Below are positions 19,297 through 61,320 of a stretch of DNA of 64,000 nucleotides, one piece after another. Position 1 is the stretch's first letter. Each line of letters starts with the position of its first letter. The notes beneath the pieces were generated by a model. That model had not been told where the DNA came from, ran no database searches, and was given only the letters and a program-made list of their open reading frames with translations. The DNA comes from Sclerodactyla briareus (taxonomy: Eukaryota > Echinodermata > Holothuroidea > Dendrochirotida > Sclerodactylidae). The stretch spans positions 248,001-312,000 of the forward strand of contig JAODTK010002777.1 of the NCBI GenBank assembly GCA_026419785.1, in the 5' to 3' direction. A program made the position numbers and the translations under genes.

Positions 19297-19479
19297 ATAC
19301 TACATACAATCACCACACATCATAACCAAGCTGCCAGTGACTTCCCCATCACGAGACAGACACTGCAACTGATCGACGAAGTACTGCGCAACGTTCCTCG
19401 CGTCAGATGTATCCATACTGAAGACTTGAATACACTGCTCCCACCACTAGACTCCAGTACAGGAAGATGTATGGTGTCA
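19297..19479 (+). CDS. unidentified plus-strand gene, exon B
   Basis: The acceptor TTCTTCCCTCCTCTAG is followed by YYIQSPHIITK. After a one-base shift near 19,328 it continues ASDFPITRQTLQLIDEVLRN, VPRVRCIHTEDLNTLLPP and LDSSTGRCMVS, then TGA at 19,480. Together with exon A it forms a continuous helical protein segment. Amino-acid composition and the in-phase junction support real coding. No family was recognised. The 3' boundary is unclear because the last 70 bp are the first unit of a tandem array. A weak GTGTCA site lies near 19,474. Confidence 0.6.
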
Positions 19480-38375: not shown

Positions 38376-40668
38376 CTGTCAGCATATGGTGGCTGTGATG
38401 GTGATGTTTCTTCTTACGGGTCACCGGCTCACAGGTCATAGGTGTGACTGGCTGGTAGTGGACCTATGATGCATATTGGTCCTCATAACACGGGATGGGG
38501 TGTGTTTGTTGGGGCCCGGGAGACGGGGCGAGGGTCATGTAGACCGACGCTGGCTGAGGGGGAATTGATGTGGTTTGCACCGCTGGTGTGGACACTGCTC
38601 TGATGGCCAGCCCGGACGGAGAGTAAGACTGCTGTGTCGTGAACGACCGATGGGCGTACCGTTGGGTGCAGCGTAAGTCTCTGCGGTTGTCCCATGGTAG
38701 AAGCTGCCCTCGTATGGGGTTTGTGCTTCATACCAGTTTGAGATTCATATGTGGTATGTGTCCCATACATGTGGTCAGAGTAGTATTGATCACTATTGTG
38801 ACCATCGTGCTGACTATGGTTCTCATGTGGTGCGTAGCTATGATCATAATACATATTATTCTCAGAGTCGTGGTAGTCGTAACTACTCGTGCTATATGAC
38901 TGGAGGGGATCACTATACTCTCCATTGTACCCTCCATCTCCGTGCCTCGAAGATACTGATGCTCGCTGTACCCACTGCTATTATAACTAGAGGGCGCCCT
39001 CTCATCATAAATACCAGTATTGTCTGATAATTCATTATACGCATTTCTGGCACCAGCTGGCGAAAAGTCATATAGGCAGCCCTATCAGTGGATGCCAATA
39101 AAATTATACGTTCATTAGCCCCACTCTTAGTCTTTGAAGGAGACCGATCGACATAACCAGTTCTATCCCCGCGCCGATCCCAGGATGGGGATCCATGGTG
39201 ACCATTGCTGACTCCATCCCCTCTTGACAGGGGTAGAATGAACTGGGGGGTGCATCCTGGGGCCACCGTGGTAGGCCTGAGACACTGATGGGGTCTGTGG
39301 CCTCTGTGTGACATGTGTCCTCTGCGAGGTCTGCTGGGGTCATTGCTGGGGGCGCTGTGAGGTCTGAGATCGCTGCGATGCATGCGATTGGCGGGGCGGA
39401 CTGTGATGATGGTGGGATGATTCCACTGATGGTGGCTGCGTTAGAGTGTTGAGAGGAGAATGAGTGGTGCTACTACGCCCCACCAGGGTGTACACTCTAC
39501 CTCTGCTGTGGTGTATTACTGCCCCTCCTGGACGTGCTAACCTGACTCCCCCTATCAGCCTGTGTGTAGTTGTATTGGTCCTCATACTGCTTGCCCGACA
39601 TGTTATACCCCCCTGCTCAGGGAAGTCCCTGGTACCATCCTGCTCTACCCCCGCCAATAGGTTCCCCATGACGAATGCCTCTTACTCTGGCCAAGCGGGT
39701 TACTCTGTGTGACACTCCTATCAGCTCTCCTGCGCCAGGCTAGGCTCGCTCTGACGGCTTTCAGTTGTGCATCGATACAGCGTGCTTCGAGGATAACTTC
39801 TCGTGAATTGGTGACGATAGTTCAGGCGCTCATGGTACCTCCCGGCCTGAAGTTGACTTTGGAACCATTGCCATAGACGGGGGGTGGACTGTTGGGGCTG
39901 TTAGGGATACAGTGAGGTGTGCTGGGAGGGGGGTGCCTCTGATAGGCAGCATCTCCTACAACCTTCCTCCTCCTCCTCTCCCAGTCTAGGGAATTGTTGC
40001 TCCCGCTTCGGACTCGGAAATCTTCAACACTGTTTACCCTTTTGTTTTTTTTTTTTCTGTTGCTCTTTTAGCCGACTTCGAAATCTTTGTAAGGACTGTA
40101 CAGGTAGTGCATATTCCTGGTTAGCAGTCCTGACCGAGACAGAATACTCAGAGTTAGTCCTGCTGTTCAACCCCCTAGAACTGGAGCTCGAGAGAGAGCT
40201 TGTGTCCGTCCATAGCTATGACGATCTCCTGGCGACCGTCCAACGGTTTCCGTGTCCAATGACGAGATTGACTCATAGTGGTTCACCTCTGGTTTGAGGC
40301 CATGTGGGGGCTTAGACGACAGTTGTTCGCTGGTGTCTTTCTTCCCTGGGGGTTCTGTGACGATGATGACCGGGGATGGAGCCCGCCCTGCCGAAACTTT
40401 GTCATTCCTCGTCAAGGAAGGTGTCCTGATGTGGTCGGATCACCTGTCGCTGAAACTCCGTGACCTCTTGGGTTCTGCCTCTGGTTCTCGTGACTTACTC
40501 CGGCCACGAGTGAGGCTCTTTGGGAGTGTTCCAGTGAAGCTTAGTCTCCGGCCACTTGACGATTCCATGTTGTTGAGGTCTTCTTGTACCTCCGAGGAGA
40601 TGGATTCGGCAATCGGCCGTCCCCAGCTGGAGGACGGACACTGTGTTCAACTCTTTGGAATCTGTCCG
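38376..40668 (-). CDS. FRMD4-like: FRMD4-like gene, giant tail exon (many frame breaks)
   Basis: About 2.3 kb of coding-like sequence with acceptor TTCCTTCCTCGAACAG before 40,668 and donor GTATGT at 38,370-38,375. Consecutive frames give low-complexity but coherent peptides: PSSSWGRPIAESISSEVQED, RRLSFTGTLPKSLTRGRSKS, APSPVIIVTEPP, NHYESISSLDTE, SRTNSEYSVSVRTANQEY, NSVEDFRVRSGSNNSLDWER, YHERLNYRHQFTRSYPRS, SHRVTRLARVRG, MSGKQYEDQYNYTQADRGSQ, SSHHHHSPPRQSHASQ, PQTPSVSQAYHGG, GSPSWDRRGDRTGYVDRS, DFSPAGARNAYNELSDNTG, SYSTSSYDYHDSENNMYYDH and VYMTLAPSPGPQQ. Roughly ten frame changes are needed (one at the 12-T run 40,045-40,056). In-frame TGAs lie at 40,647-40,649, 40,440-40,442, 39,617-39,619 and 39,340-39,342, and a TAG at 38,464-38,466. 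Ser/Pro/His/Tyr-rich disorder is typical of FRMD4 C-terminal tails. It is either an error-rich copy of a real exon or a decayed one. Confidence 0.75.
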
Positions 40669-41489
40669 CTGTTCGAGGAAGGAAAGACACAAAATCCAGT
40701 TATCCAAAATATACACAATTTATTATCTTTGAATGCCAATGGTCATGTAAATTGACTGGACTATTGGTACTTCTTTTGTATTACAATATGACAGCCGAAA
40801 CTCCGCACCGAATTTCAGCTGATTCGAGTTTTCCGATAAGGCACAATCAGCCCTTTCAAAATTTACCTGTGCCATCACGGGGGGAGAACCGCAGGAAATC
40901 CAATAGAATACAAAGTCATCAAGTAAAAACATTACTCTTGAAAATATTGACCAAACCAAATATCGTGGGATATGAATGAAACACCCACCAAAATTGTGTC
41001 ACGGAAACATAAAAGAATATTCGCATTTTTTAAGTGATTACCTTTTTCCGTCTTTCAGTTATCATGGCCAAATATGCCACATTTACAGTGTAGGGTCTAT
41101 GAGGAGGCCTATGATATTCCCCTGTGATGTCATGGATTCCTTAAATTTCTCAAAAGTAAATTAAAATATCTCACGAGGAAGTCGGGCAACATGCACAACC
41201 TCCAAATTTGGGGGTGTGGGGTTTTGATATGTCCTTTTTTCACCTTTTGTAGTTTAATGCAAATCTATTACCTGACCATTGGTCTTTAAATGTTCTTTGT
41301 AGTATTCATATTTATGCTATATGAGCAGAAATGCTAAGTAGGGAAACAGACCAAAGTAGTGAAGTATATATATGTAGAGACTCTGAAGGATTTTCAACTG
41401 ACAGCTCCTTATAGGCTGGCTTTTATAAGACATATGAGAAAGCTTCCAACTGGTCAACTATAGACAGCATAGCAGAGGAAATCAAGCTC
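40669..41489 (-). other. intron of FRMD4-like gene
   Basis: Between CUPID exon 3 and the tail exon. The acceptor tract for the tail exon sits at 40,669-40,690. No further exon was recognised, although vertebrate homologues have linker sequence that should be encoded around here. Confidence 0.5.
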
Positions 41490-41638
41490 TCCCCTCCGTG
41501 CCGCATTCCTGTAAACCTCCCGCCTGTTGTTTTGCTGACCTCTTGCTGTATGTTTGGGTCTTCTCCCAGCTTCCTCGCTGCTGCAGTTATATTCGACTGG
41601 ATTTCAAACTCCTTCTCCAGGCGACTCAGATCTTGATT
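41490..41638 (-). CDS. FRMD4-like: FRMD4-like gene, CUPID domain exon 3
   Basis: A long pyrimidine tract and TTCAG precede 41,638. The frame reads NQDLSRLEKEFEIQSNITAA then ARKLGEDPNIQQE, matching the family LERLEREFAIQSQITEAARRL-A-DPNV helix. Two endings are possible. A GTCAGC donor right after QQE would give a 99-bp exon of 33 codons (to 41,540). Alternatively the exon continues with VSK and, after one missing A in the AAAA run near 41,530, NNRREVYRNAARRGELD, which resembles the family KKQRKxxYxNAxKKLxEIE helix. The second is preferred because the similarity continues in order, but no clear donor was seen at that end. Confidence 0.85.
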
Positions 41639-43100
41639 CTGAACGGGGGAAAAGAGAAAATAAGTGAACCCCCCTCCTTCGATCCAATGATAATTCTCCT
41701 ATCCTGGATTTGATGCTGGTGTGTGGGACATGGAGTGAACATACGTCATACTTTTGCAACTTTGCTATGTATACGTGCAAAGCATGCCACTGGACTTTTG
41801 GCATAGGTCATCCGATAGTTTAGAGGTCAGGCTTTCCTCAACTAATTCAGGAAAGTGCCAACTATGACATTCCTATCTGAACAGAGCTAGTCTGTTGCGC
41901 ACCATTTGGAATGCTTCAAAGCCGCCAGTTGAAAAGGCCTGGTTTATGGATAAATGTCCCCCCCCCCCCACCCGTGCTGGAAGCCGATGATTGCACTCCT
42001 TGCTTTGATATCATCACATACACATACCAGTACTTTTCACATTCATGTCCTCCAGCTAGAATTTGTCTCCGCAGCTTCGCTGCGATTTTTAGTAACAGAA
42101 ACTGTATGTGCTGATACAATGTTTACACATACGAAGCAATGGCTGCACTAGGGGATTAATTTTCTCTTCAAATAGTTACATGAATTTGCCTTCATTGACT
42201 TCATGGTAATACCATAACTCATGAAGTAGTATTCTTTATCTTGTTTAATCTATCCTATTCTGACTACAAGTGTGTTTGTCATCATGGAAAAAAGTTCCGT
42301 CCGCTGTCCACTAGTGCACTGGAGCAGGAGAACCGTGGATAGATAGAGATTTTATTAGGTAGCAATGTGTTGATGTAGCAGTAAGTGATTCAGGTTCGAT
42401 TACACTCTTGCATTTGCATCATTAAGAAAACCTCCTCAGCAGTGGTTGGGGCTTTCGGCATAGGCTCAAATGTTTGTTCTCTTCTTTTTTTCACAAAAGT
42501 TGCGGAAGTAATTGACGGGCCACCCTGGAATATCAGCTTCTCTTGCATCATAGGATCTGGCATAGCTTCACTGTAAATCGAGACTGTCCCACTTGCCCAG
42601 GTCCATCAAAGGGGCAACGTTCAATGTTAGGCCCAAAGAGGTTGAGGAGGAGGGCTGTTATCTCATAGAGAAGGCAAGTTAACACGGGTGCTCATCCATG
42701 ATCATGGGTGATCATGGACTCAGTTGAGACAGCAGCTCTGTCAAGGAGAATCTGCCAGGCTAACACTGTACACAATTTGGGACCGCAAAAGCTGTAGTTA
42801 GACTCCAGCTAACCCCAGACAAAAAGAAGAAAAACAAAAAAAACCCCAAGCTAGTTCCTGCGTGACTGCAAGATAGGCGCGACTGCAGCAACTCCTGCAC
42901 CTATCCAGTGGCCACGACCTTTGGAATTCGACTTCTATCTGGAAAGAGTTTTCAGTGATTTTGCAAGGCTCACATTGTTTTGTGACAGCAAATATATCAA
43001 CAGGCCTGTGCAAAATGGGAACTGCAATATAGCTTGACTGAAGTACCATCAAATTGGCTATCATGGTCCGATCTCTCTCCATTGATTCTTAAGAGACATT
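41639..43100 (-). other. intron of FRMD4-like gene
   Basis: Unassigned sequence with a C-run at 41,957-41,967. No other coding segment was seen. Confidence 0.5.
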
Positions 43101-43109
43101 AACAAACAT

Positions 43110-43520
43110 CTCCTGCTAAAAGTTCCGCCAGCATGCATCCCAAATAAAGAGCCAGTTCGCGCATGCTCACCACTGAACAGTTCGGAGGGTAGCGCCAGAT
43201 AGACGAGATTCGCCCCATAGCGATATCGTACGGCTTATTTTTAAACTGTCACCGCTATCTGAAAAAACAACAACCAGAGTTCATCAGATGTTTTCAGATG
43301 ATATGTTGGTAGGAGGGGGGCGAAAATCTTAAAGTATGGGTTGACAAGGAGTTTGTATTTCCAGCGAAGTGGAGTTTTGAAGATCGTTATGCACACTGTA
43401 CGTTCAACGTCAACTGCGGGTCGTTCCCCTTGACCTGACACCAAATACATTATCATCTCATTAACAGTAACTCCAACCTGGCTTATACAGTCACCTCTCG
43501 CACAATTGATCACAGTCATT
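43110..43520 (-). repeat. dispersed repeat family, copy 3
   Basis: The reverse complement holds GGTGACAGTTTAAAAATAAGCC, a CGTCTATCTGGCG-like block and CAGTGGTGAGCATGCGC, as in copies 1 and 2. The other half (GCACACTGTACGTTCAACGT, CTTGACCTGACACC) matches the 26.5 and 61.5 kb copies. It lies in a FRMD4-like intron. Confidence 0.75.
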
Positions 43521-43951
43521 CGCAACCGGTTGTAGGTCCTCTACACGTGCAGTGTCTCAGCGAAAGTGTCAGTGAGTCACTGTTATTCATTGCGGCCTCA
43601 TTTCACACTCTACAGACAACATCAGTCTAAATAAGCATTGGCTATAGAGGATTTTTTTCATTTAACCATGTCACATTGATACACGGCATTTCTGTCCAGT
43701 TATGGATACTCGTTTTACCACCCCCACCACCCAACCCCACTTGCCAGGATTTGTGAAGCAGTGGACATAAAAAAATCCTGTTCGCTCTCTCTCCTTCCTC
43801 CTTTTTTCGTTTGGGAAAATCTTTTAAATGACCATGTCCGCGAGTACAACCCCAGATCTCAAAAGCGAGCTATTTCGAGGGGTACAAAATGGAGCACATC
43901 CTGACATATCCTGACAATGAGAGGTGGGCAGATACCACTGCTGAAGCCTAC

Positions 43952-44084
43952 CCCTGAGTTGGAGTGTGTCCTCCTCGACGTGCTTGTCCGAGAGCCTGTA
44001 GGATGTTGACATCCGTCGTTGGAACTTGGGCCGAGCCTCGGAGGGTTTGATGGGGTACTCCTTTGGAAGGATGTTGGTTATTTC
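43952..44084 (-). CDS. FRMD4-like: FRMD4-like gene, CUPID domain exon 2
   Basis: The acceptor (CTCCCCCTCCAAAACAG) is followed by EITNILPKEYPIKPSEARPK then FQRRMSTSYRLSDKH, ending VEEDTLQLR. This is the strongest single match in the window. The family core is E-L-T-G-x-L-P-x-E-Y-P-L-x-P-G-E-x-P-P then R-R-R-I-G-T-A-F-K-L-D-E, and almost every conserved position has a counterpart. Joined to the previous exon it gives QEA then EITN, phase 0, with no break. The donor GTAGGC leaves one extra base before it, in a run of four G, so phase 0 into the next exon requires one G fewer. Confidence 0.93.
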
Positions 44085-44109
44085 CTGTTTTGGAGGGGGA
44101 GGGAGAGAC

Positions 44110-44505
44110 AGCCATTTAGGATATATCTTTTATGCAGTTAATCAATGTAAACCATGCCTTTTCTATCATTTTTTATGGGGGAACTTGCCGGCATGAGATC
44201 GAACCTAGTCACAGCCAGCAAGGTGCATACTTGGATACCGAGCCTTCTTATCAGCTACGTATCCTTCACCAGGTACCAGAATAAGGCAATGCCTCTTTGG
44301 TGTTACCTTAATGTGGGGGAGGGTTCATCAAATGCAGACGGCAGCTAGCAAATTGCCTAGGCCTCGTTAGTCCCTGCTCCATCCCTTGTGCTGATGATCC
44401 GTGATAAGGCAACAGGTACCATTTTTCAAGTCTTTAGTACGACCCAACTGGGATTCAAACCCCATTCTCCTGGGTGGAAGGCCAACACTCTACTTTTCGA
44501 AATGT
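44110..44505 (-). mobile_element. tRNA-derived SINE-like element
   Basis: The reverse complement begins GTAGAGTGTTGGCCTTCCAC and, 30 bp on, GGGGTTTGAATCCCAGTTGG, a good polymerase III B-box (GGTTTGAATCC) in a tRNA-like head. The downstream body shares blocks with 27.5-27.7 kb. The head does not fold into a complete tRNA, so a tRNA gene is not claimed. The copy sits just upstream (transcript sense) of CUPID exon 2, between it and exon 1. Confidence 0.5.
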
Positions 44506-44797
44506 GAAATTATGAAAGATAATCAGCCCATTTGAATTTCACACATGCTTTCCTTTCAAATCAATAGCCATTAAACGTTCAAGTCTCAGAGTGACTCACT
44601 AAGGTATCAACCACTTCACACAAAAGTGATTAGTTGAAGGAAAGTAATTCTTCTCAATAACCTGTAAACTGGTGCTTTACCAGTGCAAAATATAATGTCA
44701 TGTAATAATATCACACATTCCGCAATGCAGAATCCATACATACCTTTTTCATTGGACTGTTCCGGGATTCCAATTAAGCCTGGCTAGCTTGTGGTGT

Positions 44798-45375
44798 TAC
44801 TGACACTGAGACTCAAGCATCTGATGCACAGGGGTGGTGCACACACATACTGATAAACTCACTGCCAACTGATACACTGCATCTGATGCACAGGGGTGGT
44901 GCACACACATACTGATACACTCACTGCTAACTGATACACTGCATCTGAAGCACAGGGGTGATGCACACACATACTGATACACTCACTGCCAACTGATACA
45001 CTGCATCTGATGCACAGGGGTGGTGCACACACATACTGATACACTCACTGCTAACTGATACACTCACTGCCAACTGACACACTACATCTGATGCATAGGG
45101 GTGGTGCGCAACACTTAACCGCTAACAGATACACTGCATCTAATGCACAGTGGTGGTGCCCAGACATACTGATTGAGATTACTCCACTTCCAACTGATAC
45201 ACTGCATCTGATGCACAGGGGTGGTGCACACACATACTGATACACTCACTGCTAACTGATACACTGCATCTGATGCACAGGGGTGGTGCACACACATACT
45301 GATAAACTCACTGCCAACTGATACACTGCATCTGATGCACAGGGGAGGTGCACACGCAACTGATACACTCACTGT
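44798..45375 (+). repeat. minisatellite, about 62-bp unit
   Basis: About nine copies of a unit with ACTGATACACTCACTGCCAA, CTGATACACTGCATCTGATG and CACAGGGGTGGTGCACACAC. It is in the intron between CUPID exons 1 and 2, about 90 bp from exon 1. The repeated peptide frames on the minus strand come from this array. Confidence 0.95.
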
Positions 45376-45465
45376 ATTCAACCAAATGGAGTGAAAAGAT
45401 CTAGGATTGGGTTAGGCCCAGTTGGTTGAGCTGTCATTGAAAGATTCAGTTTTAGGTGCACTCAC

Positions 45466-45607
45466 TGCTTCTTGGATGCAGAGTTTCTTGAGAGCATTAA
45501 TTTTCTCCTGAAGACGTTTCTTCCAGACAAAGCTTTCCTCTCTTTAAGAGCAGCAACCATCTCCTTCCTTGCCTCCTCCCCCTCCTCAGCTAACAGCTCT
45601 CTTGAAG
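45466..45607 (-). CDS. FRMD4-like: FRMD4-like gene, CUPID domain exon 1 (coiled coil)
   Basis: A 142-bp exon with acceptor TTTTCTGTCATCAG and donor GTGAGT at 45,460-45,465. It reads SRELLAEEGEEARKEMVAAL then KERKAL. After a frameshift near 45,525-45,530 it continues as WKKRLQEKINALKKLCIQEA. This is the start of the CUPID (DUF3338) domain shared by FRMD4A, FRMD4B, INAVA and CCDC120, whose family signature is a KKLCxxEAE motif. Removing two bases or adding one restores both the frame and phase 0 at the donor, which fits the next exon exactly. In vertebrates this coiled coil recruits cytohesin Arf exchange factors. Confidence 0.9.
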
Positions 45608-45700
45608 CTGATGACAGAAAAGAACAGATGAAATAGTTAAGACAGTAGAGAAAAACACTGAACTCAGTGGACAAATGCTACGATGAAAGTGGTAAACAAC

Positions 45701-45829
45701 ATCGCAATATTTTTGGAGCACTCAAAATGTAATCATTTCAGAGCAGCACTGGACTGGGCTGTACTGAGTAGTGGAGGTAGTGCCAGACATCGCAATATTT
45801 TTGGAGCACTCAAAATGTAATCATTTCAG
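45701..45829 (+). repeat. 42-bp direct duplication
   Basis: CATCGCAATATTTTTGGAGC and the next 22 bp occur at 45,701 and again at 45,788. Confidence 0.85.
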
Positions 45830-47394
45830 TGCAAGCACATGTAACAACAAGTTTCAGCTATTACGTGAATAATGTGATGTAGGCTTCAGCTCATTTAAAC
45901 GTAGGTAAAAACAAAAACTGGATTGTTTTATCAATTATTTGTTTAGATTGCTTTACAATGAAGGTGTTTGGTCCCATTCTTTCTATTCTTTTCGAGATGT
46001 TCTCAAAAGTTATAAACATACACTGATACACTATGGAACAAAACCAACTGGTCATATATGTATGTAACAGTTCATGCCGTCCTCATCGGATCGAGAAGAT
46101 CGGCGGATGTTGGAAATGAAAACATCGGCCATTGGATCGGCATGAAAATTCATTTCAGTAGAGCGCTAGTTTTTGTGTGAGCAATTTTTTCGGTATTGTT
46201 ACAGTGTGACCCGGGATTGAGAGAACTGCTGTCAAGTCAACTGCTACTAGTTTCCATGTCTTGAAATGTGCATGAGATAACAGTATCTCTCTCCCCATCA
46301 ACGAACATAACGCCGACGTACAAGTCTCTCATACAAACCATCAGTAGTTGCTAATAATCGCAAACAAGTATGGTAAATACTTCACTTCCATGAAAGTAAT
46401 TTTTTCTATATGCAAGAGCATAATAAGTTCTTTTCTGGGGGGAGAGGGGAGTCTAGGAATCACAGGGACCATTCTCATCATATTATATCACATTACTGGG
46501 GGCCACAGGTTGCCCATAGTGTACTGTAACTGTGGAAACAGTGAACTCATCAACAGTGAAGTTACTCATCCAACACAAACAAGCCTGACCTTCTTCCACA
46601 GATTATTAGTACTTTTCTGGTATTTTCCGTTCTATGCCCATACTGTGTGATTCTGTGTGGACTCAGACTAATGGCTTAATTTTTAGGATATTGATCCGCG
46701 AGCGTGTTTGTTCTCACAACTGTTCAGTCGGAAGTCCATGTGATCTGGACAGTTGCCAGACAGAGGGGGCCTGGGACTTGTTGCGAACCGGGATACAAAA
46801 ATGAGAGGGTCTGTGCAAGAGAAAGTGTGATAGCGTATACTAGGATACATACAGTGCAAGCTACATGCTGTTTGCCCTATGGTGGTTCCAAAGACAATCT
46901 AAACATTGTAGTTGAATTATGGAACGATACTTATCCTAAACAGATCACTTATCCTAAACAGATCACTACATTCAGTGAAATCTGATAAGGAAATCTAAAT
47001 GCCCATTGCTCAGAATGCAATTAGGCAAATATGTTTCACCACAAAGTTGTGTGGAGTGCTTGTGAAGTGTCCGCTAGTGTGGCAAAGGAATTCATCCACA
47101 AGGTAATTTCAGTAACATATATGTGAGGGACAAGTAGTGAAAGTTCACCTAAAGAACATTGCTTAACGCCCCGATGACATGGAACCTAATGAATATAGCC
47201 TCATTCTCGATAATATTAAGATAATGAAAATATAAAGTGAATTAGTTTGGTTTCATGAAGTTAGTGGGGTTAGACTAGAAGCACCAAAATACTTAGGAGG
47301 GGAGGGGGGGGCGGTATTGTGTATCGTGGAATTGTCATGGCTTTTATACACTATGATAATCCTGAAGCTTAGATAAGCTTACATCTCTTTATAC
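45830..47394 (-). other. intron of FRMD4-like gene
   Basis: No exon or repeat family recognised. Confidence 0.4.
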
Positions 47395-47541
47395 TGGATT
47401 CGTGAGGCCTTGAGACTGTTGGTTAGAGTCTTTCAGTTTATCCGCGATGCTATGCTAGAGGTCTGGGATGAGGACAGGGAGGGAGTGCTCACTGTCAGGT
47501 CATTAGCGATCTGACTCATGCTCTTGCTGCTGCCATATCTC
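47395..47541 (-). CDS. FRMD4-like: FRMD4-like gene, FERM-adjacent exon
   Basis: The acceptor TTTCTTCTTACCAG precedes 47,541. The clear frame reads SKSMSQIANDLTVSTPSLSS, equivalent to the vertebrate RSLSEIAIDLTETGTLKTS segment that directly follows the FERM domain. The frame stops after a further SQTSSIASRIN. A neighbouring frame continues as IADKLKDSNQQSQGLTNP up to a plausible donor, GTATAA, at 47,389-47,394, so one indel near 47,435 is likely. The 3' boundary is uncertain: a weaker GT lies nearer. The segment is Ser/Thr-rich, as expected of a linker to the CUPID coiled coil. Confidence 0.72.
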
Positions 47542-49826
47542 CTGGTAAGAAGAAACAATTGAAAGTAAAATTCTTACATGTCTGAAACAATGCATTGCTG
47601 ACACCACTTTAATAGTTAGAAACCTCTCAGCAGCATCTGCTGCCTTGATCAATAATTTTACAGTTTGAGCTGGAAAACTTAGGCGCCAAGATTGTACTTG
47701 ATCCCAAAAAATGAGACCCTCTTAACTTAACAGTTGTAAGCCCCTTTCAAGTGTAAATGACAAATATCAACACATTAGGCCCATAGCAACAACACCCCCC
47801 CCCCCCCTATAGGTGTAAATTGATACCGCTTCAACAGTTGAGGCTTTCCGAATCAATCTTTGCAAGTAGTCTGTGTAAGAGGATTCACTCATGGCCAGAA
47901 TGTTGCAAAACTCCCCATGACCGAACGTTGGAACAAACATTTGTAGCCATTCTATCGTGATTTCAGATCCTATCATTGCACCATTCCCATTCTCCAGATA
48001 TTAGAAAAGACAACCCCCACCCCTCAACAAATTCCTGCATATACGCCTTCTCCCCATCGAACCGACCTCCTTCCCATGCTAGACCAGGGTCATTAGCAAC
48101 TAATTCTCCAGTATGAATTTCAGTAGTGCCACGCTGTACAGCTCCCAGCATTCACCTCCCACGATAACAAAGTCAGCGTACAGCTGTTATCTAAGATAGT
48201 GCAACAGGTGGACACATGGCTCAGGTCTTGCTAATAGCTCCTTGGTATATTTTGATAGGATATGTCATCAAAGTTGAGTCACATTCATGCAGACCACCCA
48301 GGCTCCCAATAACACAATCATTTCACTTGCGGCCTCTAATGACATGTGTCAATTGTATGCCACACCCCCATCCAATACCTGAGGGACAGGGTGAGTCCCT
48401 TGTCAGAGGTGGGTTATACAATTCTTGTACATTGACGAACCCCTCAGTCACTCAAATGACTTGCAACTACTTGAAAATGACTCACTGGTGAGTAGCTCTT
48501 GCTATCATTTTCCACTTGATTGAGCTTGTAAAATGGACACACACCAGGAGTCAGATCTGGCGGACCATTCAGGGAAAGGGACACATGTGTGAGTCACCTC
48601 GGATTTGACAATGATTAATGACCCACCACTTGGACTGAACCCATGCATGGGTAGTATTGAGGGGTTGTGTGCAATACAATTGGCAAAACTTTGCAGTCAA
48701 ACTGTACGGTAGAAGAAAATGGTTAGGGACCGCAGAGTCCCTATGAAGGACACAATGAGCAAAACACTGATGGGCAACGATTCAGAAGATCTTGCCGTAT
48801 GCCGTTAACCTTATGTAGAGAGTTTGCCACTTGTGTGTCATTCTGGAATCAAAAATGATGAAACTAATTTTGATGTCACAGAGAGATTATGGTCATAGAG
48901 GCAGATGGAACCTATTGGACCTGGCAGTACTCAGGTAAAACAATGGGTGATTGTGATGGGAGGACAAGGGAGACCAGCTACGCGTTGATTTACATCACTA
49001 GAAGGTAGTATTCCTGTCTACTTCCAGTCTCTCACCACAGCCTACCAGATCAACTGATACTGTGAACATCAGCAGACATGGCATGAAAGAGAGTGGGTTA
49101 GAGTTGGAATAAATCACCCAACTCAAAGCTCTCCCTAATGAGTAAGATACCAGGGCAATCCTCGCTAATGATGATACCTAACGATCTTTGAAAAGAAGGG
49201 ATTATCTATTGAGAATTTAGCAAATCTGAGAGGATCAGGCCCAAATTTACAAGTTTTGACACAGTCCCCTACGGTAAATCACAGACATCACTCGCAGCCA
49301 GCCTTTCCGGGGAATCTGACAACTGATCAAATTTTCTCAATAATGAAGAACGATTCAGTGTCATAAGTTCTTCGTGGTAAAGTGAGGGTGTCAATTGATG
49401 ACATTAATTTTATTTCAATATCAATGATGTCAATTTTTCAGAATGTGAACAAGGAGCTTGTAGATGCCACTTCGAATGTCTTGCCAATTAAATCCCAGGT
49501 CACGAAACTTGAGTCATTTGCATCATGTTTTTGTGATTAATTTTTTTTTAATTTGGGTCAATTTGGTCAGTTCCAAAAATTAGTGCACGAGTCATAAATC
49601 ATTATACAAACAACAGTGAGGGAGCGAGAGGGTAAAGCGAGTGCAGAATGGAGGCTTAAGAAGAGGGTTACTAGACGTGTTAAAGAAGTATGAGTGTGTG
49701 TTCTTATGTGAGAAGGTGTAAGCCCTTTGTTGCAAGCGAAGATGCCTCTAATTAGCCTACGACCTTATTAAGTTCCTCAGTCAAGAATGGAGTATCAAAT
49801 TATGTCTGGACACTGATCTACCTTAC
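47542..49826 (-). other. intron of FRMD4-like gene
   Basis: Unassigned; C-run at 47,796-47,807. Short frames only. Confidence 0.4.
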
Positions 49827-49961
49827 GTGCTTCCGGTCCAGTATAGAAACTGATGTTGACTGACGCCATGTCCACATAGGAACCTTATCACAACGGGTGG
49901 CGTTACCAGGAATGGACCTTGTTGGTGCTTCCACCCAATGTACGTCTACTGGACAGTTACC
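49827..49961 (-). CDS. FRMD4-like: FRMD4-like gene, exon for end of FERM-C lobe
   Basis: A 135-bp exon between an acceptor (TTTATCTACAG) and donor GTAAGG. Three frames each hold a consecutive piece of the FRMD4 FERM-C C-terminus. First comes SSRRTLGGSTNKVHSW, equivalent to the SVSRRTF...VHTWYA strand region. Next is VVIRFLCGHGVSQHQF, the last helix ending in the hallmark QHQF. Last is LDRKH, equivalent to YLDRK. The order is right and the pieces abut, so two single-base indels (near 49,906 and 49,840) and possibly one near the 5' end would restore it. One frame is open throughout but reads as unrelated sequence, so an ORF-length search would choose the wrong frame. The phase of the next exon also implies a one-base discrepancy. 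Confidence 0.78.
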
Positions 49962-50539
49962 CTGTAGATAAACGAAAAGGATCAAGGTAAAATAGTTACA
50001 CAAAAGAAGATGGTTTTTTAACCTGCCCTCACGCATTGACTGTCCCAGATCAAGAATAATGGGGTTAGCACCCCTGACGTACATTCGCCCCCCTCCCCCA
50101 CATAACGTACATTCGCAACACAGGTTAAGGAAATAGGAAGTATATGATCTCTACAAAGATTGCTGCATAAACATGCAGTACATGGAGAGAGTGGTTTGCG
50201 TGTGAGCATTTGCTTGACAAAACACAAACAACATGTACCACATATACCAAGACACATGCAACAGCGTGATTGCCGTGGTCCCTGACTCAAACTTGTTTTC
50301 AGGCCAGACAAAGGAGGGATTGAAGAAGATGGAAAATACACAAGCTACTCGCTCACCTAAGTTATGCGAACCAGTAATAAAAACACTTCACCACAGCTTC
50401 AAAACCCGGGCCAATAATCAGCTGAGGAACTGCAACTATTGTCCTTGTGTTTGCACTTATCTGCCCATTTAACCTTATTGTAATTTTTGCTACCATATAT
50501 ATAGTTTTGATGGTTTTCTTATGGCTACTATTTTTCTAA

Positions 50540-50685
50540 TGAGTATATGGTTTTACATGCCTCCTCGTGGGTTTGTATGTTATATCTTTAAAGCGCTTCG
50601 ACAAGCTTTGCTGATGAACCGCTATATAAATACTATTTTATTTTTTATTATACTTTTTATTATTTATTTCTATTCCTTGGAGCGT
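50540..50685 (+). mobile_element. possible LINE 3' tail
   Basis: AAAGCGCTTCGACAAGCTTT then a GAACCGCTATATAAATACTA-type end followed by T/A-rich short repeats resembles the 3' terminus of CR1/L2-like elements (compare the GCGC...ATAAGT tail at 12.3 kb). No reverse transcriptase sequence was recognised upstream. Confidence 0.3.
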
Positions 50686-53600
50686 TGGACAGTACATCAA
50701 CATAGATACAGTGTTAAGTTTTCAGAAAATATGCAGGCAGGCTGGGCTCAAGACAAATCAACATTTCATGTGTATGTAGTTTTTTTTTTCAAGTTTTTAA
50801 TAACACCACGTCTTCTCTTCATCAGTGGCCTCTTTAGCAGAACAGCACGCATCATGTGTCCTCCACCAAATGACAGAATCTTTTCAAAACCCACCAAAGT
50901 GACTATAGAATAAGGATGCTGCCCAGCTGGGCAGACATATTGAATTATTCAGCCAGGAAATTCACCCAACCACGCCTAAACCATGTAAGGCATTGGCAAT
51001 GTCCCCTATTTACATTAACTTCAATGCAATTAGCTGCAATGTTTTAATGATCAAGCATTAACATCTAGAAGGAACCTTGTGAGGTCCTTCCTTTCATATG
51101 ACAGTACGTGCAGTTTCGTTCCTATTCATACATTCCCCTGGAATGACCGCCGGGGGGTCGTAACTTGAATAACAGATGTCCCTTCTCCTTGGACTTCACA
51201 TAAGTAGGGACTCCTTTACCTATATCAACTGACTATTTTTACACAATCGCCAAAATAGTTTGGCCTCTAAAATGGATTGAACAAAGAAGCAGTCAACAGG
51301 GTCCCCCGATTGTTGTGCCCTCTCCTCTAGTGTCCAGATTCGTTGAAAAAAACAGATCTACCTCTCAGAATCTGGCAAAAAGGGGTAGGTTTTCATCTCA
51401 GGTAACAAACAACATAAACACAAACTAACTGGGCATGAGAACAATAGAGAGTTTTGGGCTGCTCATTTGTTTCAGTTTTCAGGGTCATAGCTGTTGAACT
51501 CTACCATTGTTCCCAGTATGGGGTCTCCATTGTTTATTGGTGGCTGATTACCACGACAAACCAAACCTGCGACTGTCGATACCATAACTGTTTGCATGCA
51601 CTTTTTCCTAACACCTGTGAAATTGGGGTGCTCATGTTGCTGTCTTACTACTACAGGGTTTGAGAACTGACCCAGCTAGGATTCTGAATATGTTAATGGT
51701 GAACGATAGTGTCATCTCCTTTTCCGTTTCAATTTTTTGGCCAACCATCCATTAGGGTGCTCTCCCCTTGAAGTTAATAGCATATACCCTTTATTACTCA
51801 GGCCATGCGTTAGGCGTCTATAAACTCCATAACAGAAACTTCAATGGGTAAAAGGTCTCAGAATGATTTATCCTCCTCACCACTCATATCTTGAGGGTTC
51901 TTCATAGACCTTTCCCCATTGAGTCGCTTCGCCTCTCACAACAGGCGGTGAATGCTGTCAGCATATCCCCCCTTCCCGCCCCTCCCCCCTCCCCGACTCA
52001 TGATGAAGAGCCGAATCTCAACAAATTTACAGCTACACACTCACAGCTGTACTTCACTAGGTTAAGTGTATAGCATAATAATCACACCGGGTCCTAGGAA
52101 CGCCAGGCAATGTGGAAACAAATTCTCCATGTAAGTTCTTTCTTTAGCTTCCGTTCCTTCTGATTGGTGACCACGTTGTGTATTTTCTGATTCGATTCCT
52201 CTACATTTTTAGCTCGCATCTAAACCACAGATGAATGAGATTGATCACACAAGGTGTTTAGTGGGGTTCCACAGTGCTTTTGTATTTCGGTGCCCACCAC
52301 TTCGGTTCCACTTTCCATGAACCACGTGACACCTGGACTTACCCACCATTTCCCAGAAAACTCATTCGCAGTCGTGCAATCAGAAGCCAAGTTCCAGGGA
52401 ACCCCCATGTTGATTCTCCTTCATTCCTACACCTACTTGTCATTCTCTTCCATTATTATTTGCACAACGTCCAAACCCTCAATTATTCTCATTGCATTCA
52501 ATATTGATTTTAATATATATATTACTCCTCTTACTTCTGTCCGAGTAATTTCTATTACACAATACACAGTCTGAGCTGGACAAAGAGAAATGATATCACT
52601 TATTGATTTTGATGGACGGGTGTCAACAGCTTGCATTGTGTTAGTATAATGGAGGGGTGTGGGGCAGTGTTTGTTGCCTCAGATCGCGTGACAAATCCAA
52701 CCACGACCGCAAAATGCATAGATTGATGAACTCTTTTACAGCAAACATGGATTGTTAGTTTCACATAGGATGGAGAACTCACTGAAGCGCCCAATTAAAA
52801 GAAGTGGGAGTGTCACCCTAAATTTGAATCATCATAAAATGCAAGTAAATTGGTGAAGCTAGCTAGAACTGAGATAGAGAAGGCTGTGAACATCGGTGAG
52901 TTAAATGGTGTCATAAGAGTGGGTCATGTCCCCAGTTTTGTTACCAGTGGATTTTCAATCTAAAGTTATTTAGTTTATCCGACCATCTTGGCCTGAAGCA
53001 GTAGTTGCTAAGTCGGAGAGTTTTTAGGCTTGCCCCGTTGTCCCCACTGGGATAAGTGCGACCTTGGATTCAAATTTACACTCGAATCAAGGGTTTGCCT
53101 TCACTGGAAATGCGGCTTGAAAAAGCAAGCTTTTGTGAGCATGTGATACTTCCTGCAACTACTGTGTTGGGTTGGATCAGTGAAGGGCGTCAGCCAAAGT
53201 CATCAACGAGTAACTGGTCCTTCTGGTAGAAGCCCTTGCCACTCAGGCTCGGGACCGATCTGCTCATGTCACTAGGTCACAGGAGGCCAAGGGCGGTCCC
53301 AAGAGTCCATGGCGTGCAAACACAATGGGGGAATGAGCAAACATGGGAAATGGGAAAATAGAAAACAAAAGGTAGAACAGAACATAAGTCATGCATAGTT
53401 AATGAAATGTGATGATATTAAATGTAGGTTAGAAAAAACCATCGCTGAAAATGAAAACAAAACAAGGGCAATCACCTGCATGAGGAGACTATGCATTTTT
53501 ATGCAGACGGCAGCTTCAAAAATTAATAGGCATGAAAGTATTTCCCTGCCAATGGCCGCCGCCTTGTGAGAGGTGACTGGAGAGAGCAATTGTCAAGTTT

Positions 53601-55102
53601 TATAAGAGGAGACACTGTAATAACCCGGGTTGCTGAACAATCACACACATTTGAAGAGAACAATTGAATCATGCTGTGCAATGTCTTCCCTCTTGGGACA
53701 TTAATTATTCACACTAAAACAGGAATGATTCATTTGACCTGTTAACATTTTACTGAAGCTTCCACCTAGCTCTCATCCTCACGCAGTTAAATATTTTACT
53801 TACACCCAAGTCACAACAAACAGGAATATTCTTAACATGTTCTTACAACTTTGTAGACCCGCGTTTAGAATACCTGCACGGACTATCTCTCCACATGAAT
53901 CAATCACAGACATTGAAGAAATCCTAACCCTGTGACGCATGTATCTGTGTCACTGCACGTTCTCTCTATATAGGCCTATGTGACTGTGAAACAACTGGGT
54001 CCCTGAACTAGGTTATGGCCAAGTGTCACCTGCCAATGGAGACCATGACTGCATTGTCCTGTTCTGCTCCTATGAATATGTATTCGGAATCGAAGGGAAG
54101 AACAATGGTGATATTGATCACAATAGGATTAGCATACTAACCAAGATAATAAGTCCTCTCTTTTGGGTCTTACACTGTGGTTTTGTGTGATAGCATGGAC
54201 CCCCATTCAGTGACGGTCCTGTGGAGCGTAATAAGTCTCACCAAAATGAACCAGAAACCACCTGAATTATTGAGGAAAGAGCATAAACCTGGTTGCCCTA
54301 GTTTACACACCGTTGACATTTCTGGAAAATGGAAATGCGGGAATCCAACTTTGAAAATCCTTTTTCCTCCCCCACAAAACCAGAAGTAGGTTTTTTTTCT
54401 TGGAATGGTGGGGCGGTCATTTACCACATCTACTCCCCCCCCCCCCCATTGGGGTTCGAGTTATCTCTCGTTCGTACCCACAAGGGACTGGAGTAAGAAC
54501 AGGGTTTTGCTAGTCATTTCATCGATGTTCATCAGCTCATAACAGATGGAAACTTCACTTATCATACTATATTCCTCACTCTCCTCATAGAATTTCTATA
54601 ACCCAACTCAATTTTCAACCATCATTAACAGACTCCTTAGACGGCATTATATGTAGGCATGATTCACACCTGAGGTTTTACTCTGAAAATCTAGAATCGT
54701 GTATCACTGATACCGTGGACGCCATACAAGATTCTCAGAAACCCCAATCAATCCGTCAAATGTTCACGTGGAAACTAGCCAGATCGTGTTAAAGTGAAAT
54801 GAGACTGTTTCCCTCCCCCCCCTAAGAGCACAGAGCCTGAGAAACTCCGCATCCCATATGGCGACTCACTCATCCCGCCTAATTAATTTAGAAATGATTT
54901 GCTGCCGTCTCCCCCACCTAAGGGGGGAACGATTGGCATAACGGCACAAGGATTGCTGATGGTGGTGTCAGGGTGGTATGGGTGTAGTGCAAGAACAAGA
55001 ACTCAATGTTGTAATGCTTAGCCTTTCAAGGTGAATGATCGTCAATACCGTTGACAGCATGACTTCGGGAGCTAATGGTAAGGCCTGCTCATGGGACAAA
55101 GT

Positions 55103-55480
55103 TTAAACAACATAGTCCTGGCTCCGTCTGGGGCGCGGCCGATCATCAGGAGAGAAGTGAATCATACTGAAGCCAATTTCATGCTCCATTTGCGAAGTTG
55201 TGCAATAAATCCACTGATGCACTTCCAAAGGCTTTAGATAATAACGGTGGGACAGAACATCTTTTTTGTGACTGTGGAGAAACACTCTCGCAGGGACCCG
55301 AGTTATGCTGCTTTCAATTTTGGGCACAGCAATCCTGTCGATACTTTGGAACAAGAGGATTAGGAAAATGTTGAATGTGTCTGCCTCACCAAGAGGAAGG
55401 GGAGTGATGGGCAGGTGAGGCAACTGTTCCAAAGCCTGAAGTAATTGATGAGTGCATTGTTCCCAATTGTGGGTAGACAT
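55103..55480 (-). CDS. unassigned 125-codon ORF inside an intron
   Basis: An uninterrupted frame starting MSTHNWEQCTHQLLQALEQL lies in the long intron between the two FERM-C exons. Composition is balanced, with HLPITPLPLG and a charged C-terminus DDRPRPRRSQDYVV. The start codon overlaps a GGTAAATG sequence that itself looks like a splice donor. No family was recognised. In 64 kb one frame of this length by chance is not surprising, so it may be a nested gene, a retroelement fragment or chance. Confidence 0.15.
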   Translation of the reverse strand: MSTHNWEQCTHQLLQALEQLPHLPITPLPLGEADTFNIFLILLFQSIDRIAVPKIESSITRVPARVFLHSHKKDVLSHRYYLKPLEVHQWIYCTTSQMEHEIGFSMIHFSPDDRPRPRRSQDYVV

Positions 55481-56394
55481 TTACCTGAACTGCCCAGACT
55501 GATAATGTCTATCATTGAACTAACTAAAGCCTATATCTTCTTAAATATCTTCAGACACTAATCCAAGTCAAGGGTGCAACCACGAGAGTGGGGGCCTAGG
55601 GGGGGTCAGACCTCACAACTTTTGGGAATTGCTCCATGGAATGATATTATTTCCACAGACAAAACGTCTCTTTAATATAAATGCCTGGACCCCTCTCCCC
55701 AACTTCAAATAGTGGATAAACACAAGATGAAATGTGATATTTCGACGATTAAATTTAGAATACAGGTTGCAAAACAAACAGAGCAGAGTATGTGAGTGAT
55801 ATTTCAAACTATTTTGCTATATCCAACAAGATCTACAAATAGTCATTGTGTCTAAGAAGCTGATTTTTTAATCCCTTCCTTTGGGCTGTGTTAGTTATGA
55901 CAGCACACCCTAAAGGAGGGGAGGGGGCGTGTAGATGTCAAAGACCCAGAGCAACAGAGGATTGCTGGGAATACCTGGGGACAAAGTTTATACCCAATAG
56001 GAGCTGCGTGAAGCCATTGAAGTATACCACAGGTCTGTGAAATCAATTATCCCCAGAAATCTAGGAATCAGGCACGACATCTGCCTCATGTGGGGCACTA
56101 GTCTAAAAAATTTGTGCAGCCCATTTGGTTCTTAGGCTCCATCTATCTAGGCTCCATATTGGATGCTACACACAAAACTTCAGCTTGATCAGACAAGAGC
56201 ATTCTGGACTTACTGTGTTTACAACAAAGTGAGGAGGTCAAGGTATCATGTTTCACATCCAGGTGAATACACAACATGTCAATCTGCACATGACGTAGAG
56301 GATTTTCTGACTTCGTCCTGGAATAAAAAGTAGTCCCTCCCTCCCTCCTTACAGTCAGGCTAATCTGTACCCTTTCCTAAAAAGGTGACATGTC

Positions 56395-57335
56395 GATAAA
56401 ATCCATTTGTTGTATTCCAAAAATACAACCCACCTGTAACCCCTCATCCGCCCCCACCCCATGGTCAATGCATCCCTATTCTGTGAACATCTCTCCTGTA
56501 TTTTGGGATAAACATGTGATTCCTATCATTGTATCCCTAATATTTTTCTCTCATTGATGAGACTACATCAGTGTATCACTGCCGCTCCTTTAACCCCCCA
56601 CCCCCAGCCTCCAATCTTATATGCCACCCCATGCTATAAACCATACATGATCATGCTATAATCATGATCATGTCAGATTTTACCTTTACAGACTTTCATT
56701 ATTGCATTTCATTAACAGGAACCACCTGCACGTCATATCACTACTCCAGTCCATCAGAGCACAAGGAGGATGAAGAAGCCTCCCTTTGTCGTGTTTTAAT
56801 TACATCCTCCCTGTTTAATATTTACCCATCGTCCCGGGATCCAGTTTTGAAAGGGCATAAAAGCAATTGATTGTATTGCCAAAAATACCACGCCACCTGA
56901 AACTCACGCTCCCCCCTTCACTATGTCGGGCATCTCTATTCTCCTTAAACATTCTTAATCCTGTTAGTTTGAGATAAACATGGTGCTTTTCCTATCAACA
57001 TCGCAGCCCTAAAATTTGCTCCATTGATGTGCACATCAGTTATCACTGCACTGCCTCTAACCCACCCAACACCACCTAATCTTCTATGCCACACCCTGCT
57101 ATAAACATACATACCTGGCTCTTTTGAATCATGAATCATGTCAGATTTAACCTTTACAACTTTTCATTAATTGCTTACATTGGTAGGAATCACCTACACT
57201 CAATTCCAATGCGTCCAGTCCAGGCCTCAGAGCCAGCGAGGATAAACAGCCTCCCCCTTTGTCTAGTGTTTTAATTACACCCTGCCATCCCTATTAATCC
57301 ACCCATCATCGCGGGATTCAGTCGAGGATTGAGGT
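56395..57335 (+). repeat. two-copy tandem duplication, unit about 462 bp
   Basis: Both copies run in the same order: CCAAAAATAC (56,417 and 56,879), GATAAACATG, a CCATTGATG-like block, TATGCCACxCC-TGCTATAAAC, ATCATGTCAGATTT, TAACAGGAACCACCT-like, GTGTTTTAATTACA-CC and CATCGxxGGGATxCAG. Confidence 0.85.
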
Positions 57336-58448
57336 TTGAAAATCAAACTGGTGCACAAAATAGGAGAATCCTAGACTAAGCCAAGGTAGATCCAATCAAT
57401 TTATATGACCCCTCCATCTTTGTAATTGGTTATCGCTCGCTTCCAGGCAGTTGCCAGTTCATTTTCACCTCCAGGAATGGATTTTCTTGTAAAAAAAAAT
57501 ATGCTAGACATTCACGGCAAACTCAACCGCATGTTACTGTGTTTGAATTTGTTCAGCTCACTAGGATTGTTGAAAGGAAAACAATTTCAAAGAGGCTAAT
57601 AGCTGAGGGAAACTAAATGGTCAGTCCAGACTCAACTTTATATCATTTTTTCCATTACAGAGACTACTGAACTGAGACTACTGGGAGACGCGATACTGAG
57701 GCTTGTGCTCTGTATTGGTGCAAGAATTGAAAAGCCTCCCATCACACATAAAAACACTACTATATTCCTTGTGTTGCTCGTATCCATGGCATCATGACTT
57801 ATTGGCACACAGGGACTCTCCCTAATTTTTCTCTGCATAACTTCAATTGCTTAGTGTATTAATTAGTCCCATTGGGAAGGAAGGGAGAGGTGTCAAACTC
57901 TCTTTGCTCATTTATTCAAAACACATGTGACACTGTGGACAAAAATGTCACTATTATCAATGACCTTGTCCACATCATCAATACAACAGCATGCCCCACT
58001 CACTTGTTCACTCCCAACCCACCCGCCATTTCAGTAAGTCAAATCATCGTGTCACTCGGAGGACCTACCAATATGGCCTGCCACATAGGGTACTCGCTAC
58101 ACTTCAAAAACGTACCAACTTTGTGGGGTGGGACAATTCAGGAGACAGCATTGTGGAACTCAGGTGACATGCCTTACATGTCCACAGCCCTGCAGACTTC
58201 AGAGGACATGCACTGAGGGAAAGTCGAGGACCCTCAATGGGTCTCAAATTCGCAATCAATGTTCTGACCTCCACCGACTGAAGCCTATATTGAGTCGTCA
58301 CTATAATTTGTCATACTTATTGATTGCGATATGGGACATTTTATCACTGTGATTCTGTATGTCATATGCCAAACTGCACGGTCTATTTTTCACCTGGGGT
58401 TGCGAGATCATATGTCTCTTAACTTAAGGATAACCTGCATCATAACAT

Positions 58449-58493
<45 letters not shown>

Positions 58494-59927
58494 TCTTTCC
58501 AATTTTAAGAGGCGTGCTACAGCTCTCTTTCGCATTAATTTGCCTAAAATGAATTCGAGGTGAGTCGTTTACTACTTGACTGTGAAGAAGTTTTGTCGAA
58601 TAGGCTGGACAAGCTCAATCTGATCCATGTCCATCAGCAAAAATGGGGAGACAACTCACCATAACACTTTCCAGGGAAGCCATTAGCCATTATGCATTGA
58701 TTATGCATTTATTTTATTATTCGAAGATCCGATATACTAAGCCCTACAGTTACTCTGATTACAAGATGATGGGGCATCCGCCTCCAAGAAGGCTATTTCT
58801 TTGCTATCTTCAAAGGTTCAGTCCACTCGCTGTTTATACAGACAACCCTGGGTTTTCCTCAGGGTACATTCATGTCCAATGTCCATTCCAGCCTTCCATC
58901 CCCCTGAAATCCATTCAACACCCTCTCGGAAATAGGGTAACAAGACACGGGCGGAGTCACTAATGGATATATTGTGATAAAATTTCCATCCAATGAACCT
59001 GGGGTTACAAAGCGAACACAACAAGCACCAGACCCGAATGAGTCACGGACCAGTGTGATTTGATTACGCCCTGGTCACGGGGTATCATGTAGAGGGGTCA
59101 TGACGGGTCGCTACAGGATAATACTATAACAGGGAAATAGGTCAAACACAAATGTCTCTTTCCAAGAAAATCAGGATAAGAAATTACCTTCGGTTATGTG
59201 TTGATGATAGTCACAATAGACGTATCAGCTGAATTGAGGGTCAGACTAGGCCGAGTTATAGTTTTAGTCACAGGAAGTAGTCCTCAGAATTTACAACTTT
59301 CTGACAGACTTTTCACTTGCTTTCCCAGAATTTTGATTTTGGGTAGCGTATGATGAATCTGTGTATAAAGAATGTGGACATTGACGTCAAAACAAACAAA
59401 CTGACATAATTAAATGTGTGAGTAAAAAACAAGAATATGAAGAGTTAACAGTCTTAACTGTTATTTTCAGGAGAAGATGAGTTGCTGTGTTGATTGGATA
59501 AGGGGCAATGATAGGTATAACAGTATGTGTAGTCATCTTTTTTCCGTATATACAGCATTATCAGCATCTTCTTTGAAAGCATTCTTTTAACTTTTTCAGA
59601 AAAGGCAGTATTATCTATCCCCCCCCCTACGGAGTGGACCAAGGGGGTAGCATGCCTATGCTAAACCATTTAAATGCAGGTCTAGATGACAGCTGAGGAT
59701 GGGCAGCGCCTTTGATTACGTCTGTCGATATTGTGCTCTGTTATAACTAATGATTATTATTATTATTATTATGGGCAGGGACCTATTGAACACGCTTCTG
59801 GCCACAGTAGTCTAACATGGAATATCTCCCACCCGCTTGTTGGCCACTGATTCCTATTGTCTATCTATTTATAGGCTATTGCCTGTTTGAGAGCCTCGAG
59901 GGTCAACTACTATCTGACAATACTCAC
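57336..59927 (-). other. long intron of FRMD4-like gene, last part
   Basis: Contains a (TA)n microsatellite at 58,452-58,490. A 114-codon plus-strand frame at 57,872-58,216 shows no motif. Confidence 0.4.
58452..58490. repeat. (TA)n microsatellite
   Basis: About 19 TA dinucleotides. Confidence 0.95.
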
Positions 59928-60004
59928 CTTTGTGTCCAAGGACCTCGATGAGAATTTCCTGTTCTGGTAGTAAATGTTTTGAAGCTGTTTTTCCAAGTGT
60001 AATT
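59928..60004 (-). CDS. FRMD4-like: FRMD4-like gene, exon for FERM-C lobe, first part
   Basis: A 77-bp exon bounded by a good acceptor (pyrimidines then CAG, at 60,005-60,007) and a consensus donor GTGAGTA at 59,921-59,927. It reads LEKQLQNIYYQNRKF. This matches the family pattern in which a QLENLYF-type strand is followed by a KKFSVEV-type strand in the FERM-C (PH-like) lobe. The second strand, IEVLGHK, is one frame away, so a small indel is needed near 59,945. FERM-C lobes bind phosphoinositides and membrane-protein tails; FRMD4 proteins act at epithelial junctions with cytohesins and Par3. The next exon downstream, at 49.9 kb, continues the same lobe in the expected order. The exon alone would be too short to assign; its order relative to the other six gives the confidence. 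Confidence 0.7.
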
Positions 60005-60007
60005 CTG

Positions 60008-61320
60008 TGGAGGGAGACATGCTATTTCATTAATCACTAAATCAGGAAATCACTGATGACGGAAAGATCACCTGCGTGACTAAAGCGTTCATGTTAATAC
60101 TGACCCCTCCCTCCGCTGCGAAAAGTCTTTTCCCCCGCCCTTACCAACTTATTTATGATTGCATGCATAACCTGATGCCTGTTACTACTCACAGAAGGGT
60201 TTTTTAATGTTAGCTCGGATTCCAAAGATGCGTACGCGTATGTGAAAAATTCACCAATTTACGTGGAACTGGGCGGGGGCTAGTGTTTGAATATGTTCTA
60301 TTTAATGCGTAGCAGTCAGAGAGTAGAGAACAACTGGACTAAATAAGACAGGGTACATGAGGACACAGTTGGTGCGCCGTCGAATGGCTCAAAGGACTCA
60401 AATTACAGCAACTGGAGGGGAGCGGCACTAGTCATTCTTGGACAGCGAGGTGGGAGAGAGGGACCTCCACTGATGGGAGGGGGATGGAAAAGACCAACAA
60501 ACGCGTATTCGAAGTCGTATCACCCGCTTCTATTGGCGAACGGTGAGCTGCGTCCAATGGTCTAAGTTACTTCTATCAATTAAAAGCCAAGCAACGAAAT
60601 ATTCCTGGGCTGCTCTTTAATGGTCTTTAGCATGCCTCATAGTGTTTTCTCTTTTCTGAAACATACGTTCGTTTCATAATTGCGATTTTCACATCGTAGC
60701 CCCTGGAATACGCATCTGCAATCATAAGTAATCCCCCATCCTTACTCTGTCTCCCTGCCTACAGTCTACCACCTAGATTTCTTGCAATGGCCATTCACAA
60801 TCCCTGAAACAGAGCAACCCCCCCTCCCCCCCCCCCCCCCACATGCATCTCTCTGCAATGGCTCACAATCTTTAATAGAAGATGACAGGACTGTTTGACC
60901 ATGTCCTTCCTGGTTTAATGGGGCTATAGGTCTGCCTCATAGCCTGGCTACTGTAACCAACCCCCCCCCCCCCCCCCCCCACCGATCAGCGTTTTGTTAT
61001 AAACTCTTAGGTGCTACAGTCTTACGCTTTCGTCACTTTACGTCCCATGCTGCCTACAATTTGTATCTGGGCGAGTCAGCCTACATCTTTACCATAATTG
61101 CATTTTGTAAGGAAATGTCCTCACTTGTTCCGGGTTCACTCTATCTCCCTGGTCGTATTGCCCTATGCCTTTGTAATCTCAGCAAGCCAACCAATGGCCG
61201 CCCAGGTTTGTCCTTGACTTCATAGTAATGCACACCTTCGGTTGGAAGACTCTCAATACCTTGCATTAACGGTCAAATGAAACATAATAGAAAGGGAATA
61301 GATCAATTAAATAAGCCAGT
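60008..61320 (-). other. presumed intron of FRMD4-like gene
   Basis: No FERM exon recognised. C-runs at 60,819-60,840 and 60,961-60,980. Confidence 0.35.

Follow-up and report, generated by a model that had tools for sequence, protein, structure and literature searches.

The locus raises two questions: whether the minus strand of the window (the whole analysed stretch of 64 000 nucleotides) carries an FRMD4 gene, coding for a FERM domain followed by a CUPID domain, and, if it does, why the reading frames are broken.

FERM and CUPID exons on the minus strand

A preliminary description had located seven peptides on the minus strand in collinear order, and all seven were found at those places and in that order (Table 1). 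The frameshift-aware spliced search that it proposed was performed with the sequence of human FRMD4A as the query and the minus strand of ext 40500-145000 as the target, where ext coordinates number the window and continue into the contig sequence beyond it. The protein-to-DNA alignment used GT-AG introns and tolerated frame shifts of 1, 2, 4 or 5 bases. It was collinear and scored 691, against 117, 131, 125, 134, 135, 117 and 123 in seven control runs (the plus strand, reversed DNA, a reversed query and four shuffled queries). The aligned codons number 457, filler pieces included, and 218 of these are identical to human FRMD4A. Three pieces, at ext 111037-111090 (4/18 identical), 66017-66025 (1/3) and 172385-172423 (5/13), were rejected as exons and regarded as alignment filler at chance level.

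Table 1. Motifs, exons and probable tail of the FRMD4 locus (window or ext coordinates unless C2120 is given; identities are to human FRMD4A)
Feature	Position	Strand	Remarks
Motif QLQNIYYQNRKF	59952-59987	minus	
Motif SQHQF	49847-49861	minus	
Motif LDRK	49830-49841	minus	4-mer also on the plus strand at 8704
Motif SMSQIANDLT	47493-47522	minus	
Motif KKLCIQEA	45466-45489	minus	
Motif ILPKEYPIKPSE	44037-44072	minus	
Motif LEKEFEIQSNITAAARKL	41567-41620	minus	
FERM-M/FERM-N exons outside the window	C2120:342161-342303, 366202-366380, 379441-379564, 390981-391040	minus	from the FRMD4A alignment
FERM-C first exon (IESLPTEGVHYYEVKDKPGRP...DYKGIGQYDQGDRVNPEQ)	61125..61257	minus	28/43 identical; donor GTGAGG (phase 0); alignment interrupted by one frame break and one stop
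FERM-C exon (NYTW / QLQNIYYQNRKFS / IEVLGHK)	59928..60004	minus	10/28 identical; acceptor CCACAG, donor GTGAGT; hand-read ends
FERM-C end exon (RRTLGGSTNKVHSW / PPVVIRFLCGHGVSQHQF / LDRK)	49827..49961	minus	20/39 identical; two frame breaks; hand-read ends
Post-FERM exon (RRYGSSKSMSQIANDLT)	47493..47541	minus	corresponds to RSLSEIAIDLT of FRMD4A; acceptor TTACCAG, donor GTGAGC; hand-read ends
CUPID exon 1 (ARKEMVAALKERKA...QEKINALKKLCIQEA)	45466..45607	minus	23/44 identical; acceptor CATCAG, donor GTGAGT, phase 0; two frame breaks in the alignment
CUPID exon 2 (EITNILPKEYPIKPSEARPKFQRRMSTSYRL...)	43953..44084	minus	14/43 identical; Pfam CUPID 27.9 bits alone
CUPID exon 3 (LSRLEKEFEIQSNITAAARKLGEDPNIQQ...)	41493..41629	minus	23/44 aligned codons identical; one frame break
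Probable 3' coding tail	38400..40700	minus	frames broken; 5 ORFs of at least 100 aa

When the three CUPID exons were joined by hand as a read-through, the Pfam CUPID profile (PF11819, formerly expected as a DUF3338/CUPID match at 41.5-45.6 kb) matched there with 97 bits and E 1.2e-27 (cut-off 22.4), covering profile positions 26-135 of 136. FERM_N (PF09379) was likewise above its cut-off of 22.7, with 35.6 bits and E 8.8e-9 across two exons that lie outside the window. The first piece of FERM_M (PF00373; 16.8 bits, E 0.0093, cut-off 23.8) and FERM_C (PF09380; 19.1 bits, E 0.0018, cut-off 23) in the hand-joined exon 59928..60004 both fell below theirs. The FERM piece with LKEHPALMFCEERI matched no Pfam family, yet it aligns with FRMD4A, as do three consecutive FERM-C exons. 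The exon pieces containing SQHQF and SMSQIANDLT, and the first 21 residues of the FERM-C first exon taken alone, also matched no Pfam family. In a sequence search of the PDB the CUPID read-throughs matched nothing but designed chlorophyll proteins, with E values of at least 0.0082 when the long piece was used and 7.1e-5 with a short one; these matches were taken as chance, no single stretch being significant.

As LDRK shows, one short motif taken alone can be repeated at another place in the window, and the whole set might on that account be chance matches assembled by a hopeful reading, but the gap between the alignment score and those of the seven controls, together with the E value of the CUPID match, leaves this with a negligible probability. 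A second possibility is that two adjoining genes are present, a FERM gene of a different FRMD type next to a separate CUPID gene, given that the FERM and CUPID exons are joined here by genomic order. They are, however, on the same strand and in the right order with the post-FERM motif between them, and FERM exons such as those with IESLPTEGVHYYEVKDK and LKEHPALMFCEERI align with FRMD4A itself, the sole FERM protein aligned, making two genes very unlikely indeed.

At the level of the sequence, the domain order, the collinearity and most of the FERM and CUPID exons are demonstrated: exons that align with FERM-N, FERM-M and FERM-C of human FRMD4A precede CUPID on one strand, and the probable tail follows. 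The FRMD4-like FERM plus CUPID gene of the preliminary description is thus supported, with Pfam evidence for FERM-N among the FERM exons upstream of CUPID. In the predicted protein a FERM domain and the post-FERM motif would come first, then CUPID, with a long tail probably at the end.

Extent of the gene and its 3' tail

The gene had been described up to 60004, but it runs further, to the FERM-C first exon, absent from the earlier description, and to four more FERM exons outside the window. From the tail to the first exon found it occupies approximately 105 kb (C2120 about 286,400-391,040), of which about the 3' quarter falls within the window. Two stretches of FERM-M (human residues 136-153 and 194-209, approximately) were not found by spliced or local alignment, the best local scores of 33 and 30 being no better than chance matches of other segments. 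Alignment also failed to recover the first coding exon, which corresponds to residues 1-17 of FRMD4A.

Several exon ends were read by hand from splice sites and lie as much as tens of bases away from those given by the alignment. GT-AG boundaries had been claimed for all segments, and this holds for CUPID exons 1 and 2, the post-FERM exon and FERM-C, but on splice-site reading no clear donor was seen after the last CUPID exon. For that exon the acceptor may be GTTCAG, slightly further upstream, with the exon then starting at 41638. The junction between CUPID exons 1 and 2 is in phase 0, in agreement with the earlier claim, and exons 2 and 3 join in phase only with a frame break. The intron between CUPID exons 1 and 2 contains a minisatellite at 44817-45374 (8.8 copies of units of approximately 62 bases).

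The minus strand of 38400-40700 is probably a frame-broken coding tail of the gene, judging from its composition and open frames. Its G+C content is 53 %, against 41 % across the window. The number of ORFs of at least 100 aa was equalled in 6 of 300 dinucleotide shuffles and in none of 100 control stretches (50 overlapping places, each read on both strands), and the coverage by ORFs of at least 60 aa in 5 of 300 shuffles. The longest ORF was equalled in 31 of 300 shuffles and as few stops were seen in 38 of 300; on the opposite, plus strand this stretch contains 3 ORFs of at least 100 aa. Local alignment with the part of the FRMD4A tail that was tried found no homology. Of the long tail said to follow CUPID, a probable coding tail is indicated by the ORF counts and homology to the FRMD4A tail was not found. 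The statement that the gene forms no notable ORF is correct for the conserved exons but not for the tail, where the five ORFs are 113-175 aa long. A zf-NPL4 match in one tail ORF was weak (E 0.011, below the cut-off) and was set aside as an effect of composition.

Origin of the frame breaks

The gene had been described as hidden by frame breaks. The breaks are present: across the 457 aligned codons there are 10 frame shifts and two stops. One stop, in the 47418-47525 alignment, falls beyond the likely donor, and the other, in the 61125-61257 alignment, falls within the exon. Well-conserved genes of the same assembly, alpha-tubulin and HSC70, served as controls. Of the loci fetched, 10 of 14 for HSP70 and 6 of 7 for tubulin were aligned, and tubulin L041, L042 and L043 (scores 43-58) and HSP70 L036 (score 40) were excluded from the break counts. 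Among the alpha-tubulin loci, L038, in which 421 of 444 codons are identical to human, has 5 frame shifts, L039 (323/365 identical) has 11 and one stop, and L040 (72/74 identical) has none. The HSC70 loci, all on C2424, have 1 frame shift in 145 codons and two stops (L024), 3 in 169 codons (L025), 9 in 267 codons and one stop (L026), 2 in 214 codons (L028), 10 in 128 codons (L034), 7 in 161 codons (L035) and 15 in 232 codons (L037); L030 and L032 partly duplicate L026 and L028, and L035 is partly duplicated by an exon of L037. The breaks are unevenly spread, with none in L040, the second exon of L024 or the second and third exons of L028. These HSC70 copies and fragments (L024-L035 and L037, C2424 about 19,000-123,000) include clean exons as well as heavily frame-broken ones, and may represent genes in tandem or copies that the assembly left uncollapsed.

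Since the tubulin and HSC70 loci are broken like FRMD4 and at a comparable density, the frame breaks are most likely assembly indels and nothing particular to FRMD4. Identity of 95 % would hardly be expected of a tubulin copy long dead, and indel errors in the assembly are therefore the simplest cause.

Decay of the locus into a pseudogene, with the breaks as real mutations, would account for the frame shifts and stops and for the two FERM-M stretches and first coding exon that were not found. Against it, the introns and splice sites are kept, and hence the locus is not a processed copy; CUPID still scores well above its cut-off; and the same damage is seen in an alpha-tubulin locus that is nearly identical to human and in the HSC70 loci. 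In addition, a CUPID profile search of the 319 Mb assembly reported this as the sole place, namely the exon piece 43968-44084 inside the window. We consider a pseudogene very unlikely. That search reported one of the three CUPID exons of the FRMD4 gene, and as it missed the other two a second CUPID gene could escape it. The assembly-wide search with FERM_M reported places on other contigs only and that with FERM_C another contig only, the FRMD4 gene being among the matches of neither. A further consequence would follow if FRMD4, the only CUPID gene found, had truly lost its frame: the lineage would be without a CUPID protein and the link between cytohesin and polarity would be made otherwise, which is very unlikely. 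The minus-strand locus is, in our judgement, very probably an ordinary FRMD4 orthologue with FERM and CUPID, intact in the living animal, and its frame breaks are most likely residual assembly indels. Judging from the assembly size of 319 Mb and the one CUPID place, the animal is probably not a vertebrate; a COX1 search gave 0 matches.

Annotation programs that rely on open frames will overlook genes of this assembly or cut them into pieces, and calls of 'pseudogene' or 'gene loss' made from it would be unsafe.

Relatives, likely function and other features of the window

INAVA and CCDC120 are CUPID proteins not known to carry FERM. The locus shares the CUPID domain with both, and because FERM exons precede CUPID here, in order, it is neither of these, as the preliminary description had argued. 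FRMD4A and FRMD4B (GRSP1), vertebrate scaffolds with FERM plus CUPID, have FERM-N, FERM-M, FERM-C, the post-FERM motif and CUPID in the order in which the aligned exons lie here; the locus differs from them in the FERM-M stretches and first exon not found, in a tail that could not be aligned and in the frames broken in the assembly. A study by Ikenouchi and Umeda is cited in the literature on the function of these proteins, and none of the titles retrieved from an open-access library dealt with an invertebrate FRMD4.

In human, CUPID is found in INAVA, FRMD4A, FRMD4B and CCDC120 (PMC6226287), four proteins as compared to the one CUPID place found here. One place with FERM in front would also be compatible with a lone FERM plus CUPID gene preceding the four of vertebrates, though it is not weighty new evidence. 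The CUPID of INAVA binds the cytohesin ARNO in human cells (PMC6226287), and cytohesin and Par3 binding and Arf6 activation are known from the mammalian proteins (PMC6226287, PMC9104363). By homology, the most likely role of the protein encoded here is that of a FERM scaffold to which cytohesin ARF-GEFs are recruited via CUPID. If it behaves as the human proteins do, the FERM domain and tail would direct it to the membrane and to the polarity complexes of junctions (Par3). CUPID would bind a cytohesin, with Arf6 being activated where junctions form.

A total of 372 ORFs were listed for the window, and the Pfam scan covered 5 of the window's ORFs. Reverse transcriptase fragments, frame-broken, in two frames and by eye of non-LTR appearance, are present on the minus strand at 2923-3268 (Pfam RVT_1, E 4.1e-4 and 0.018, both below the cut-off). 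Two overlapping ORFs on the plus strand at 11650-12173 resemble by eye the C-terminal part of a LINE ORF, with no Pfam support. Tandem arrays lie at 15823-16223, 18087-18764, 19402-20156 and 34426-35274, with units of approximately 64, 96, 110/219 and 311 bases, respectively.
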